64,000 bases of DNA, taken from positions 67,547 through 131,546 of the forward strand of contig RHGE01000001.1 of the NCBI GenBank assembly GCA_004296775.1. The letters run 5' to 3'. The position numbers and the translations under genes were made by a program. The notes beneath the pieces are model-generated. The model saw only the letters and a list, made by a program, of their open reading frames with translations. It was not told the origin of the DNA and did no database searches. Positions 7,029-56,421 of this stretch are shown in pieces (positions within the stretch are counted from its first letter, which is position 1; every line of letters starts with the position of its first letter). Origin of the DNA: Marinilabiliaceae bacterium JC017 (GTDB taxonomy: Bacteria; Bacteroidota; Bacteroidia; Bacteroidales; Marinilabiliaceae).

Positions 7029-7335
7029 TTGAAAAAAGAACTTGCACGGCTGCATAAACGCTTCACTGTTTGAGTCAGGGGCTTTACACAGCTGCAGATC
7101 CGTTTTTTGCCTTGAAAAATGAACTTGATCGTTTGCGAGAGCATTTTACCAAGCCGAAAAATGAACTTGATCCATAACAAACGCCTTTTTCAACCTATAA
7201 AAATGAGAATCATCAACGTGAAAACGGATTTTTCAAGGTGAAAAATCGACTTGATCGTCTGCAAAATCAATTTCATAAGCTTAAAAATGTACTATTCAAG
7301 TGTGCAACCCCATTTTCGAAATTTTGAAATGAACC
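7029..7335. repeat. degenerate tandem array A, 41-43-bp units (two half-units of about 20-21 bp)
   Basis: Seven units plus a partial copy can be laid out at 7029, 7072, 7113, 7156, 7197, 7239 and 7281, with lengths 43, 41, 43, 41, 42, 42 and 41 bp. The best conserved half is GAAAAATGAACTTGATC; the other half ends in a variant of CATTTTTCAAGC. Unit junctions form imperfect dyads; the clearest is ATTTTTCAAGGTGAAAAAT at about 7229-7247. The two leftmost units (7029-7112) are the most decayed. Lengths that vary between 41 and 43 break any reading frame, so this is not a coding repeat. It sits about 160 bp upstream of the DUF6261 gene. Confidence 0.85.
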
Positions 7336-38363: not shown

Positions 38364-38592
38364 CACAGAGATTTTTTATCAATAGGGAGGTAAGAGCGTT
38401 CTTTGAGGTTGACAATGGTAAGTACAAGTTGCTTCAATATATTTCCATTTATCTCTAAATATTTCCACCTGTTTCCATGTATTTCCATTTATCTCTATAT
38501 GTTTCCATCTATTTCAATATATCTCCACCGGTCTTAAAGTATCTCCATCCATTTTGAACCACATGTTGGTAAAAATTGCAACCTAAGCACCT
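38364..38592 (+). repeat. array element D: six exact 20-bp units with conserved flanks
   Basis: Six contiguous 20-bp units occupy 38440-38559; the first is TATTTCCATTTATCTCTAAA, and each half-unit of 10 bp follows T(A/G)T(T/C)TCCA(T/C)(T/C), so there is a 10-bp sub-period. The flanks (a GGTAAGTACAAGTTGCTTCA side and a CATGTTGGTAAAAAT - CCTAAGCACCT side) recur around an inverted copy at 43373-43580. The conserved flanks show that this is a defined element rather than a chance microsatellite. No gene product is encoded. Confidence 0.85.
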
Positions 38593-38823: not shown

Positions 38824-39110
38824 ATCATCCGGACCGGTTTCTCAATGATGCGGAACGTTCCGGGATGACCCGGACCATCAGAGCAACGATGCGGACCGTT
38901 TCGGAATGACACGGACCACCGGAGCATCGATGCGGATTGTTTCGGGATGACCCGGACCAACAGAGCAACAATGCGGACCATTCCGGGATAACCCGGACCA
39001 ATGGAGCAATAATGCGGACCGTTCCGGGATGACCCGGACCACCGGAGCAACAATGCGGATTGTTCCGGGATGACACGGACCACTTTCCAAACGATGCGGA
39101 CTGTTCCGGG
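38824..39110 (+). repeat. tandem array C: seven 41-bp units, each 21 + 20 bp
   Basis: The 287-bp block divides exactly into seven 41-bp units. Each is a 21-bp half (typically ATGACCCGGACCACCGGAGC plus A) followed by a 20-bp half (typically ACAATGCGGACCGTTCCGGG). Both halves share the core CGGACC, so the array is also a 20.5-bp repeat. Junctions between units form the inverted repeat CCGGG-ATGA-CCCGG. Substitutions are scattered, but unit lengths do not change. 41 is not a multiple of three, so the repeat is not coding. The array is much GC-richer than its surroundings. Confidence 0.92.
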
Positions 39111-39279
39111 ATGACTCTGAGATTGATCTTTATCAAAAATCCATGAAACAAAAAGATTTTACAGGCTTACATCCTCTTTTTACACCGTTCACCTGTGGCT
39201 GCTTTTTTATCCCTGCCACTTTTCACCTGTCACCTTTCACTTTCGACCGGTTACCTTCGAACCATTACCGGCTCGCTGT

Positions 39280-43738: not shown

Positions 43739-43739
43739 G

Positions 43740-43813
43740 CGGTCTGGACGGGACTCGAACCCGCGACCTTCGGCGTGACAGGCCGACATTCTAACCAGCT
43801 GAACTACCAGACC
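43740..43813 (-). tRNA. tRNA-Asp(GTC), copy 1
   Basis: Read on the minus strand: acceptor GGTCTGG pairs with CCAGACC, the D-arm is GTTC...GAAT, the anticodon stem-loop is TCGGC-CTGTCAC-GCCGA with anticodon GTC, and the T-arm is GCGGG-TTCGAGT-CCCGT. The discriminator base is G. No CCA is encoded, so it must be added enzymatically. All five copies are identical over the mature sequence. Confidence 0.97.
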
Positions 43814-43843
43814 TAATAATAACCATTAAACTTTCTTACTTAG

Positions 43844-43917
43844 CGGTCTGGACGGGACTCGAACCCGCGACCTTCGGCGTGACAGGCCGACATTCTAACC
43901 AGCTGAACTACCAGACC
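43844..43917 (-). tRNA. tRNA-Asp(GTC), copy 2
   Basis: Identical in mature sequence to the copy at 43740-43813. It is separated from that copy by 30 nt of AT-rich spacer. Confidence 0.97.
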
Positions 43918-43950
43918 AAGTAATAATCATTAAACTCTTTTTTACTTAAG

Positions 43951-44024
43951 CGGTCTGGACGGGACTCGAACCCGCGACCTTCGGCGTGACAGGCCGACAT
44001 TCTAACCAGCTGAACTACCAGACC
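43951..44024 (-). tRNA. tRNA-Asp(GTC), copy 3
   Basis: Identical mature sequence. The 33-nt spacer to copy 2 shares 'AATAATCATTAAACT' with the spacer between copies 1 and 2, indicating duplication of gene plus spacer. Confidence 0.97.
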
Positions 44025-44055
44025 AAGTAAAAAATCAATAAACTGCTTTCTTCAG

Positions 44056-44129
44056 CGGTCTGGACGGGACTCGAACCCGCGACCTTCGGCGTGACAGGCC
44101 GACATTCTAACCAGCTGAACTACCAGACC
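44056..44129 (-). tRNA. tRNA-Asp(GTC), copy 4
   Basis: Identical mature sequence; 31-nt spacer to copy 3, with partly similar sequence (AATCAATAAACT). Confidence 0.97.
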
Positions 44130-44162
44130 AAGAGAGTCACTTCAAAACCGTTGTTTTTTTGG

Positions 44163-44236
44163 CGGTCTGGACGGGACTCGAACCCGCGACCTTCGGCGTG
44201 ACAGGCCGACATTCTAACCAGCTGAACTACCAGACC
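44163..44236 (-). tRNA. tRNA-Asp(GTC), copy 5, promoter-proximal
   Basis: Identical mature sequence; first gene of the minus-strand array. Its 33-nt spacer to copy 4 is unlike the others. Confidence 0.97.
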
Positions 44237-53113: not shown

Positions 53114-53959
53114 TTATTTATGAAGCTGAGCTACTAAATTAATACATTCTTTGGCCTCTTTCACATCGTGTACCCGCAGTATATTAGCTCCTCGTTCCAG
53201 CGCCATGGTATTAAGCACCGATGTTCCATTTAAACTATCGGCCGCCGTGCCTCCCAATAATTTATATATCATTGATTTTCTGGAAATCCCGATTAAAAGA
53301 GGCAATTCATGCAAATCGAACTCTTCCATACGATTTAATAGTTGATAGTTGTGACTAATTGTTTTCCCAAAGCCAAAACCAGGATCCAGGATAATATCGG
53401 TCACTCCTTCCTGTCGTAATTTTTCCACCTGGGTAGAGAAATAGAGAGACACTTCCTTCACCACATCCTCATAGGTTGGGGCTTCCTGCATATTACGGGG
53501 ATTACCTTTCATGTGCATCAGGATATAAGGCACATTGAGCTTACCGACAGTGGAAAACATGTCGGGATCGAGCAAGCCACCGGAAATATCATTGATCATA
53601 TCCACCTCGAAATTCTCCACCCCTTTTTTGGCAATTTCAGCCCGGAAGGTATCCACCGAAATCACCACATCGGGGAAATGGGTGCGGATAATCCCCAGGG
53701 CACTGGCCAACCGGGCCCACTCCTCTTCACAAGAGATATCGACGGCTCCCGGGCGCGAAGAGTAGGCTCCCAGGTCGACCATGTCGCCGCCTTGCTGCAA
53801 TATTTGCTCAACCCGGCTGATGATCCGGTCCGAAGTGGTGTATTTTCCACCATCATAAAAAGAATCGGGTGTAATATTCAAAATCCCCATCACCAATGGG
53901 GAGGAAAGATCGGTTAACTGACCTCTTAAGTTTATGGTTGTTTTCTTCTTGAAATACAT
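53114..53959 (-). CDS. folP: dihydropteroate synthase
   Basis: A 281-residue TIM-barrel enzyme of folate synthesis, joining p-aminobenzoate and dihydropterin pyrophosphate. Motifs are 'VMGILNITPDSFYDGGKY' near 23-40, 'GAYSSRPGAVDISCEEEWAR' near 63-82, 'INDISGG' near 122-128, 'ILDPGFGFGKTISHNYQLL' and the C-terminal 'RVHDVKEAKE'. Length is typical. It is the first gene of the folP-cdaA-MscS-SDR run. Confidence 0.95.
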   Translation of the reverse strand: MYFKKKTTINLRGQLTDLSSPLVMGILNITPDSFYDGGKYTTSDRIISRVEQILQQGGDMVDLGAYSSRPGAVDISCEEEWARLASALGIIRTHFPDVVISVDTFRAEIAKKGVENFEVDMINDISGGLLDPDMFSTVGKLNVPYILMHMKGNPRNMQEAPTYEDVVKEVSLYFSTQVEKLRQEGVTDIILDPGFGFGKTISHNYQLLNRMEEFDLHELPLLIGISRKSMIYKLLGGTAADSLNGTSVLNTMALERGANILRVHDVKEAKECINLVAQLHK

Positions 53960-54171
53960 ATACTAAAGCTGAAAATTCTCTACTTATATACTTGTAAAAA
54001 CATAAAAAGGGGAAAAGCCTGACATCTTAAATTATTGCGGACCATCCCTTGAAAAGTTTCTAATCACCTGAAAGATCAGGTACACCCGGCCACTTACCCG
54101 TAGCTCTAATTGCTGCATTTATATTACGGTGCTGTTTTATCCAAAACAAAATGGCAATCTCTATTGCACCC

Positions 54172-54220
54172 AAGCGGTGCTCCCGATGCATTGGGATTAG
54201 TTTTTGCTATAGCAAAAAAA
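54172..54220. repeat. palindromic dispersed element (CCCGATGCATTGGG), copy 1
   Basis: CTCCCGATGCATTGGGATTA, followed by a second dyad AGTTTTTGCTATAGCAAAAA, resembles the element at about 56261-56310 in the same orientation (ACTCCCGATGCATCGGGAGT then ACTTTTTTGCTACAGCCAAA). The two copies bracket the helical-protein gene and array B. A short open frame crossing this region (54110-54322) is not credible as a gene. Confidence 0.65.
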
Positions 54221-54282
54221 CTAATCAGAACCCGTATGAAAAAAATAGTATCCAAAGATAACCGTAATGACTGTCATCAAAA

Positions 54283-54312
54283 AATCCGGCCTCATCTTTA
54301 TGAGACCGGATT
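54283..54312 (-). terminator. terminator of the helical-protein gene
   Basis: AATCCGGC-CTCAT - CTTT - ATGAG-ACCGGATT with one A/C mismatch. On the minus strand it is followed by a T-run. It lies 24 bp beyond the stop of the 54337-54993 gene. Confidence 0.88.
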
Positions 54313-54336
54313 ACACAGGTAGTTGAATTGTAATTA

Positions 54337-54993
54337 TTAGGAGCGCACCCTTATACCAACTTTTTCAAGGTATTGAGCGTCTTCTCCCACAAAAACCAAT
54401 CGCAGCAGTTTTTTAAGTTTCAGACAATATTTTTTGAGCAATTCAAATTTAGCGTCACGGTCTTTGGTGGCTTGCTGGGCATCTCCTACCTCACGTTGAC
54501 GGCTTAAGTACAATTGATTTAACTCCTCCAGGTCAGAAATAAACCCTGTTATTTTCTCTTCCGAATGACCAAAAGGTACCAACTCGGTAATCGCATCCGA
54601 TTTGGCCAACAATCGCTCACAGAAACGGGATACGTGAGGAAACCATTGGGCATATCCCTGAGGTATTTTTTTGGACAATTCCAGGGCCGACCACATTTCC
54701 TGATCGTCATCAAACACATACCTGGAATGTTTTTGGATGGTTCCAAAAACTTCCTCCATCTCATCGCGTTTGGCGTTGAACTGGTTGGTAGCCGCATATT
54801 GTTCGGCATACTCTTTTTTCTGCTTTTTCATGCTATCCTCAACGGAAAGGTAGAGGGTTTTCCCGCGGCTAAGCTCCTCCTGAGTGAAGCCAAAAGCCAT
54901 AATTCGTGGAGAAATCAAAGGATCATCTGCCGAGTTCCATATCAGCAATTTGAAATCCTGCATTATACTTTCAATTGATCTATTTGTTTTCAT
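54337..54993 (-). CDS. small helical protein downstream of array B, unknown family
   Basis: A 218-residue, highly charged, all-helical cytosolic protein, not a named family to me. Long amphipathic helices are visible at about 35-85 ('SVEDSMKKQKKEYAEQYAAT'), 120-150 and 165-215. The segment 'FISDLEELNQLYLSRQREVG' followed by a final helix is laid out like 'WISELTEAQEAFSLLEQQRV' of the DUF6261 protein at 6152-6871, suggesting a distant relationship or a shared helical-hairpin fold. It too is monocistronic, has its own terminator, and has a degenerate ~21-bp repeat array (55309-55683) about 315 bp upstream. No catalytic residues are apparent. Confidence 0.75.
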   Translation of the reverse strand: MKTNRSIESIMQDFKLLIWNSADDPLISPRIMAFGFTQEELSRGKTLYLSVEDSMKKQKKEYAEQYAATNQFNAKRDEMEEVFGTIQKHSRYVFDDDQEMWSALELSKKIPQGYAQWFPHVSRFCERLLAKSDAITELVPFGHSEEKITGFISDLEELNQLYLSRQREVGDAQQATKDRDAKFELLKKYCLKLKKLLRLVFVGEDAQYLEKVGIRVRS

Positions 54994-55308
54994 AGTTTAG
55001 TAGAAGTTTTAATTAACAATTTTGCTTTAATTCCAACTACCTGTTATAGAATCTTTAACTAATTTAACAAAAGCCCCGGACATTCAAAATATTAAAATCA
55101 AATTATTATTCCAATGATCCCCATTACGTACTCTCAGCCTCATCTTTTTAGTGATTATTTGTATCGCCTGTCCCCATGAAACATGTTTCATGGCGTTCTA
55201 TTCATTTTTATGACCTTTTCCTTCTTTTTTTCATCCAAAAAAAATATTAACAGGAAAAACGCCCGTGACACAGAATATTGAACATACCCGAACATACCCA
55301 CCTTTTAA

Positions 55309-55683
55309 TCATGCCACTTAATCATTTTGCCATTTTTTCTTACATTTTATCACACCACAATGCTTTTTGGTCATGCCACTTCTTCATTTAGTCTCTCCAC
55401 TTATCCTTTCGGTCATGCCACCTTACATTTTTATCATGCCACTTCTTTATTTAATTATACCTCCTAACTATTTTGCCATTTATTCTTACATTTTATCACA
55501 CCACAATACTTTTTAGTCATGCCACTTCTTCGTCTAGTCTTACCACTTAACCTTTCGATCGTGCCACCTAACAATTTTATCAGGCCACTTCTTTATTTAG
55601 TCATGCCACTTAACCTTTTTGCCTTTTTTTCTTACATTCTATCACACCACAATGCTTTTTGGTCAAGCCACTTCCATATTTAA
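55309..55683. repeat. degenerate tandem array B: 18 units of 20-21 bp with a 146-bp higher-order repeat
   Basis: Eighteen units can be aligned, most starting TCATGCCACTT and ending TTTTG, TTTAG or TTTTA. Units of other types (CCATTTTTTCTTACATTTTA, TCACACCACAATGCTTTTTG) occur at positions 2-3, 9-10 and 16-17. The landmark CTTACATT(T/C)TATCACACCA falls at 55339, 55485 and 55631, exactly 146 bp apart each time, i.e. a higher-order period of seven units. The array thus grew both by single-unit and by seven-unit duplication. Stop codons occur in all frames and no protein is encoded. Confidence 0.92.
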
Positions 55684-56421
55684 TCCTCTTTCTCATTGAA
55701 TTTTATATCATCCTGACAAAAATTTATAAATAATCGTATGGACAACACTTAACGATTCATTATAAAAAACCTAACTGATAATAGGTATGAAACCGCCAAT
55801 AAGGTTAATCTCAGCTGCACTTACCTTAAGACATAGCGGGATGCCATGCCTAACAAGGGATTGAAACCTTCTTAGATGTGGTGAGGGTGGCTAGCATTTC
55901 ATTTCAACGCTTTCAGGTTCTGCGGACGCTAACAGGTTGTGCCTGCAGATTTTCCTCTCGTAAACCAAGCGGAAATAAAAGACTTGATTACGTTAAAAAA
56001 TGCTCCTATTGACTTTAAGTGCGTTCCGGTGCAGGGAACATTGTGCGGCGAACGAACTACTGGTTGCGCTGGTATTAATGGTGATCTGAACACAGGGTTC
56101 CGCTGAGCTCCACCCTGTGCTGTTACTGTTAGCCCTTACGAGGGCAGATTTGCTTCTTTGAAAATGACTTTGTTGGATGAGATGTTATTCCTCTTTTCCT
56201 ACTATGGGACTCGTTTCATTACTTTCGAAAATAAATTGGTATTAATCAATGTGCTCTAGCCGCACTCCCGATGCATCGGGAGTACTTTTTTGCTACAGCC
56301 AAAAGAAACAAAAAACGAGACAGCTTAATTTACACGAAGCTGCCTTCGTTTTTTCCAAGAGCAAGAGTAACAGCCGCGGGATGAGCTGTTACTGCCTTGG
56401 ATAACTTTTAGTGTGAACCAA
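55684..56421. other. intergenic region with hairpins and a palindromic element, copy 2
   Basis: No credible gene. Hairpins: CACAGGG...CCCTGTG at about 56092-56120 and GCCCTTACGAGGGC at about 56133-56146. ACTCCCGATGCATCGGGAGT at 56264-56283 is a perfect 20-bp palindrome followed by ACTTTTTTGC, paired with the copy at 54172-54220. A moderately GC-rich stretch (55850-56150) could be a structured RNA, but I could not match it to tmRNA, RNase P, SRP or 6S RNA. Confidence 0.5.

Follow-up and report, generated by a model that had tools for sequence, protein, structure and literature searches.

A gene for a rod-like helical protein and its 21-bp tandem array look like an undescribed two-part genetic unit, recurring in dozens of genes of one Marinilabiliaceae genome and in several phyla

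Why should a bacterial chromosome keep a short tandem array beside a gene for an all-helical protein, and do so twice within 64 kb? The window considered here (the whole 64,000-nucleotide stretch analysed, positions 67,547 to 131,546 of contig RHGE01000001.1 of Marinilabiliaceae bacterium JC017) holds two such pairs, and a preliminary description had proposed that gene and array form a linked system. That proposal is upheld by a strong association that recurs across many genomes and phyla.

The array at the centre of the question lies at 55300-55685 and consists of about 18 units of 20-21 bp (TRF and a circular 21-mer fit), assigned to the minus strand, which is that of the neighbouring PQLLE-family gene (54337-54993). 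TRF reported a 146-bp period at 55304-55674 (2.5 copies, 85% match), and with relaxed settings widened the array to 55300-55685 with sub-periods of 21 and 63 bp. Ungapped repeat finding resolved a seven-unit higher-order repeat, to which no strand is assigned, with copies beginning at 55304, 55450 (87%) and 55596 (64%) and thus spaced by 146 and 146 bp. The first copy occupies 55304-55449, the second, 87% identical to it, 55450-55595, and a partial third, delimited with the help of TRF, 55596-55685. The unit count given at the outset was correct, as was the recurrence of a landmark sequence at 55339, 55485 and 55631, seven units (146 bp) apart. Fitted over 306-700 bp 5' of the gene, the unit on the gene strand reads 'AaGTGGcATGAcaAAAtaGta' and carries 15 bits. 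The gene had been called 'downstream' of the array; the adjacency stands and the geometry is corrected, because the gene is on the minus strand and the array, though it comes after the gene in plus-strand coordinates, is on its 5' side, 310 bp from the start codon. Identity as a CRISPR array was rejected, as the units of 20-21 bp are contiguous and have no spacers. An Rfam covariance search of 53900-56300 gave no match up to E = 0.1, and the relatives searched included no second genome of the window's genus.

The gene encodes a protein of 218 residues (P0001) that is matched over residues 4-214 by the NCBIfam model NF052641, 'PQLLE family protein' (E = 7e-57; 192.5 bits against a cut-off of 80). 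This was the sole match above cut-off in the Pfam and NCBIfam searches, and nothing in Pfam, PF19775 included, exceeded its curated cut-off. The NCBIfam model as retrieved names the protein and records neither a function nor an array, and the name 'PQLLE' is absent from the papers of the one literature library searched. An AlphaFold2 model, built from an alignment with 75 relatives, has a pLDDT of 97 and is an all-helical rod, confirming the helical character read earlier from the sequence. The helices span residues 7-23, 28-32, 38-93 and 98-103 in the first half and 114-130, 132-141, 145-200 and 206-211 in the second, and two helices of 56 residues make up most of the model. The protein is a tandem duplication in which one half aligns to the other (hhalign E = 1e-22). 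A structure search of the model against the PDB and the viral BFVD returned no match at E <= 0.001, no helix-turn-helix or other known nucleic-acid-binding fold was found in the protein, and its pI is 6.4 with a net charge of -1. The PADLOC anti-phage defence models matched neither P0001 nor the DUF6261 protein of the window (P0002). P0001 and its array are labelled A1 below, and other A labels denote PQLLE paralogues of the same genome.

The second pair is a DUF6261 gene (P0002; 6152-6871, minus strand; PF19775, 2.3e-31) with an array of units of about 21 bp on its 5' side (7103-7316, minus strand; TRF periods of 42 and 84 bp). Like P0001, DUF6261 proteins are all-helical, with about 240 residues and an array of their own with a 41-42-bp (two-unit) period, so that the own-array architecture is common to both. 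They differ in their units, some of which are dyads in DUF6261, spaced about 20.5 bp apart in some arrays and with no or short loops in the best cases, whereas PQLLE units have none. The suggestion that the two proteins belong to one family was not supported by profile-profile comparison: small profiles of the P0001 family and DUF6261 gave a probability of 0.3%, and much larger ones at most 13-22% (P = 0.001-0.002; reversed controls 0.05-0.18). The alignments run consistently colinear over the second half and outdo the reversed controls, yet stay short of significance (P = 0.001-0.02 overall). The 'IS-acidic-L-x-E' layout once offered as a mark of kinship is not conserved within the family of P0001 itself, and a DUF6261 structure predicted from a single sequence reached a pLDDT of 47, too poor for comparison with the P0001 model. 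Shared ancestry of the two is not established.

Elsewhere in this genome the same arrangement recurs. The genome carries seven PQLLE genes (one truncated) and 21 DUF6261 genes, and nearly all of these are accompanied by an array whose period is 21 bp, 41-42 bp or a multiple. Within 1.05 Mb sampled from it, an array lies at most 800 bp upstream of 22/30 family genes versus 15/610 other genes (Fisher 1.3e-24), and three further family genes have an array on the downstream side only; arrays lie near about 2.5-4% of the other genes. A third helical family, E, first met at C198:30237, has seven matches in the genome and arrays at 6/6 loci with an intact family ORF; in other genomes of the class, 21/28 loci have one. 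By hhalign, E and PQLLE are related families (P about 1e-5 to 1e-6), and neither of the two E members tested is covered by an NCBIfam model. Members of E (L277-L282, L325-L353) share a C-terminal FYxxYxNARxIxDLG-like motif, and many have an extra C-terminal domain. The truncated PQLLE gene, A6 (G000:C6:6452-6796), is a pseudogene that lacks its N-terminal half and has no clear array.

Beyond this genome, a scan of GTDB contigs returned 109 PQLLE relatives, of which 80 were kept. Their distribution is patchy, taking in Bacteroidota, Chloroflexota, Cyanobacteria, KSB1, Calditrichota, Aminicenantes, Acidobacteriota and others, and arrays were seen beside relatives from Chloroflexi, Cyanobacteria, KSB1, Aminicenantes, Acidobacteria and Calditrichota. 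Upstream arrays with a period of about k x 21 bp (the k x 20.75-bp class) accompany 50/73 PQLLE genes, versus 0/70 upstream regions of other genes at the same loci (Fisher 5e-21; some PQLLE loci are closely related, which makes the p-values optimistic). Fitting 65 arrays gave a unit of 21.02 bp (sd 0.18) and a mean of 9.8 units per array. The array is mostly 5' of the gene, about 50-600 bp from the start codon, and is found downstream instead at D15, D16, L163 and L190; 21/80 PQLLE loci have no array over threshold, in some cases owing to contig ends. Remote relatives of 220-325 residues, which align to PQLLE with 97.6% probability, mostly have upstream arrays too. Four of these (L258, L260, L261 and L265) end in C-terminal beta-domains and have no signal peptide; the C-terminus of L260 matches CarboxypepD_reg/SdrD_B-like models and the other three look alike. 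Such domains are usual in surface proteins and would be unexpected in a protein that binds DNA. The family proteins are mostly acidic (median pI 5.3-6.1), and inspection by eye picked out basic tails (AAATRAAKK) in L201 and L203 and, in a single relative, the AT-hook-like sequence GRPRGRKRK. Searches of phages, plasmids and viral contigs gave no family matches, among them a tblastn search of paralogue A5 against 72,556 plasmid records. We found the gene-array association described in no paper of the one library searched; its absence there does not prove novelty.

The units themselves are largely private to their genes. Linked arrays of this genome barely cross-match, which argues against a single general host factor; the exceptions are D1 and D2, which are near paralogues, and an array of A2 type beside D21. 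Among PQLLE loci, unit similarity on the gene-sense strand rises with protein identity (Mantel rho 0.28, p = 0.0005), from 0.34 below 25% identity to 0.60 above 65%, and the trend is weaker on the opposite strand. A weak family-wide core, ggAAAAATGA, holds 5.45 bits versus about 3.0 in column-shuffled controls. An excess of plus-strand placements was set aside as evidence, the controls having the same excess. PQLLE arrays have no excess of RNA structure (z = -0.30), and their A-type units have neither dyad symmetry (z = 0.06) nor half-site (10.5-bp) repetition. A coding array, for which 21 bp would be seven codons, was rejected for A1 and A2, where no forward frame is free of stops. Over 65 PQLLE array regions, forward stop-free frames number 39 versus 28.6 (sd 3.3) in column-permuted controls, a mild overall excess of which A1, A2 and A4 are not part and which leaves room for coding arrays at some loci. 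In almost all paralogues, no consensus Bacteroidota promoter was found between array and gene.

Arrays of the same types also stand alone, away from family genes. In the window, a 41-bp (two-unit) repeat present in 6.8 copies lies between convergent genes (38843-39120, no strand assigned); TRF and array cross-matching identify it as A4-type, the repeat family linked to the PQLLE paralogue of contig C270, and further A4-type solo arrays occur on C2 and C360. A1-type solo arrays are found on C277, C471, C7 and C492 (where the far matches are a second array beside the first) and two A2-type arrays on C131, and D3-, D8- and D10-type solo arrays likewise match linked ones. In the four types checked (A1, A2, A4 and D3), homology ends at most about 30 bp from the array edges, which speaks against transport in a longer element, and carriage as cargo of a longer mobile element was rejected on this basis. 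The proposal that arrays grow by duplication of single and multiple units also fits what we observe: the 146-bp, seven-unit period recurs in an A1-type solo array, other arrays have six- and five-unit periods of 125 and 104 bp as well as 105-bp repeats, and unit numbers vary among close homologues (14.9, 11.5 and 18.6 at L166, L178 and L175; 9 versus 12 at L184 and L194), although contig ends restrict some of these comparisons (L148). The window also contains, at 38430-38558, a dispersed repeat of about 10 bp (TTTCCATCTAT-like, with a 20/40-bp period), different from the 21-bp arrays, which recurs between genes of this genome and often near helical genes, as by D3, D13, D15 and D18. Five near-identical tandem tRNA-Asp (gtc) genes lie at 43739-44236.

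Some PQLLE genes sit at type II CRISPR-Cas loci. At no fewer than seven of these (L126, L127, L130-L133 and L136) the gene is beside or between cas9 and cas1-cas2, at L134 and L135 cas9 is upstream of it, and on contig C483 of this genome (L052:2243-7989) it adjoins a cas9 whose product has 1347 residues; NCBIfam confirmed Cas9, Cas1 and Cas2 on representatives. A clear array is present at L130, L134, L136 and A5, with little or none at the others. A RAYT-like transposase gene often adjoins the PQLLE genes at cas loci, amounting to a few loci overall. The PQLLE gene is possibly an unrecognised type II CRISPR accessory or a hitch-hiker.

How might gene and array work together? Our preferred reading, at a probability of about 0.42, is that rod-like protein and private array form a two-part chromosomal unit in which the array is a candidate double-stranded DNA target, both in cis and in trans. 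The private 'satellite' of 21-bp units would be the cognate target of the neighbouring helical protein. Because each unit spans two B-DNA turns, protein copies could line up along a single face of the DNA, each on a unit of its own and with probable cooperativity; a 56-residue helix of the model should measure about 84 Å and 21 bp about 71 Å, which would make one rod per unit geometrically possible. By binding the array in front of its gene, the protein would be able to gauge its own abundance and adjust its expression; occupation of same-type arrays elsewhere would create local nucleoprotein patches. Duplications of one or several units would lengthen and shorten arrays, and protein and unit sequence would change together to yield many mutually exclusive pairs per genome. 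Linkage, private unit sequence, the 21.02-bp period, fixed-strand co-divergence, matching solo arrays and the duplication structure are observed, whereas DNA binding, cooperativity, autoregulation and any chromosomal role are inferred. Sequence-specific binding of the array as double-stranded DNA is suggested by the two-turn period, the lack of RNA structure and of a general open frame, the private and co-diverging units and the arrays in trans, and the basic tails of some relatives and the AT-hook-like tail of one agree with it. Several observations count against DNA binding: the proteins are mostly acidic, with a fold that has no known binding mode and, in some, carboxypeptidase-regulatory-like ends; common descent by itself could produce co-divergence on the same strand, and the sampled loci include several close relatives; and 21 of the 80 loci have no array over threshold, A-type units have no dyads, and forward stop-free frames are in slight excess.

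The array could instead be no more than a cis-regulatory spacer or enhancer: by way of a host nucleoid protein or DNA bending, the number of units would tune or phase-vary transcription of the helical gene, and the protein itself would have an unrelated task, for example a structural one. The mostly 5' position some 50-600 bp from the start codon, the variation in unit number among close homologues and the acidic proteins with no DNA-binding fold would all suit this. We nevertheless think it unlikely, as the linked units of one genome are almost all distinct and no single host factor could read them, same-type arrays also occur away from family genes, and some linked arrays are downstream. Less probable again is that gene and array make up a mobile cassette, selfish or hitch-hiking, and that the arrays are remnants of its mobility, in a way comparable to RAYT-REPIN families. 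Patchy phyletic distribution, many copies per genome, insertion within cas operons beside RAYT-like genes and solo arrays in trans point that way, against which stand the lack of a recognised catalytic motif in the protein, homology that ends at the array edges, non-palindromic PQLLE units, the searches of phages, plasmids and viral contigs that gave no match, and the small number of loci with RAYT-like genes.

In a further reading the array is transcribed and the helical protein forms an RNP with the resulting repetitive RNA, which would suit the fixed strand upstream of the gene and the hairpin-capable dyads of some DUF6261 arrays. This reading seems to us slightly more improbable still, given PQLLE arrays with no excess RNA structure and no Rfam match, a constant 21-bp period that suits B-DNA rather than RNA, and no or short loops in the best DUF6261 dyads. 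That ordinary slippage minisatellites lie near helical genes by chance is very hard to credit: solo arrays do accompany about 2.5-4% of other genes in this genome, but the controls given above (0/70 and 15/610, against 50/73 and 22/30) contradict coincidence, and the 21-bp period holds constant in several phyla and in no fewer than three protein families.

In the known iteron-controlled and single-protein partition systems, such as plasmid ParR/parC, StbA and pSK1 Par, one protein gene is likewise joined to an upstream direct-repeat array that is its candidate target and autoregulatory site, and in the window and its relatives too the array adjoins the gene of its putative binding protein. PQLLE units differ in being chromosomal, with many private pairs per genome and no plasmid matches, and no helix-turn-helix or ribbon-helix-helix domain is recognised in the protein. 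REPINs are dispersed palindromes and their gene is a transposase. The likeness to RAYT-REPIN families (for example PMC3116915) is that a gene has matching repeats both adjacent and dispersed in trans, with RAYT-like genes adjoining some PQLLE genes; PQLLE units, however, follow one another in tandem and lack symmetry, and the rod-like helical protein has no transposase motif. Membership of the REPIN/RAYT class was rejected, since the unit is not palindromic (z = 0.06) and the linked gene, with its PQLLE match only and all-helical model, is not a Y1/HuH transposase. To our knowledge the BrickBuilt minisatellite has no dedicated protein partner, and we know of no bacteria in which numerous private satellite arrays are each paired with a protein. 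By the title of its description, BrickBuilt of Porphyromonas gingivalis sits in a MITE with inverted repeats (PMC4596501); it resembles the PQLLE arrays, by description only, as an intergenic tandem minisatellite of a Bacteroidota genome.

We suggest tentatively, and no more firmly than the reading above, an undescribed class of dedicated bacterial satellite DNA with its own binding protein, in which PQLLE and its remote relatives, E and DUF6261 would each read a private array in cis as well as solo arrays, forming dozens of mutually exclusive, co-diverging pairs per genome, some of them recruited to type II CRISPR-Cas. PQLLE genes between cas9 and cas1-cas2 would be a possible and directly testable accessory of those systems. 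If the pairs do bind, they would supply natural examples of protein-DNA specificity by the dozen, built on a new fold, and a first way into the function of DUF6261 and PQLLE, both families with no assigned function. They might also organise the chromosome locally or regulate themselves, in Bacteroidota and outside it, and would be the bacterial counterpart of proteins that bind satellite DNA.
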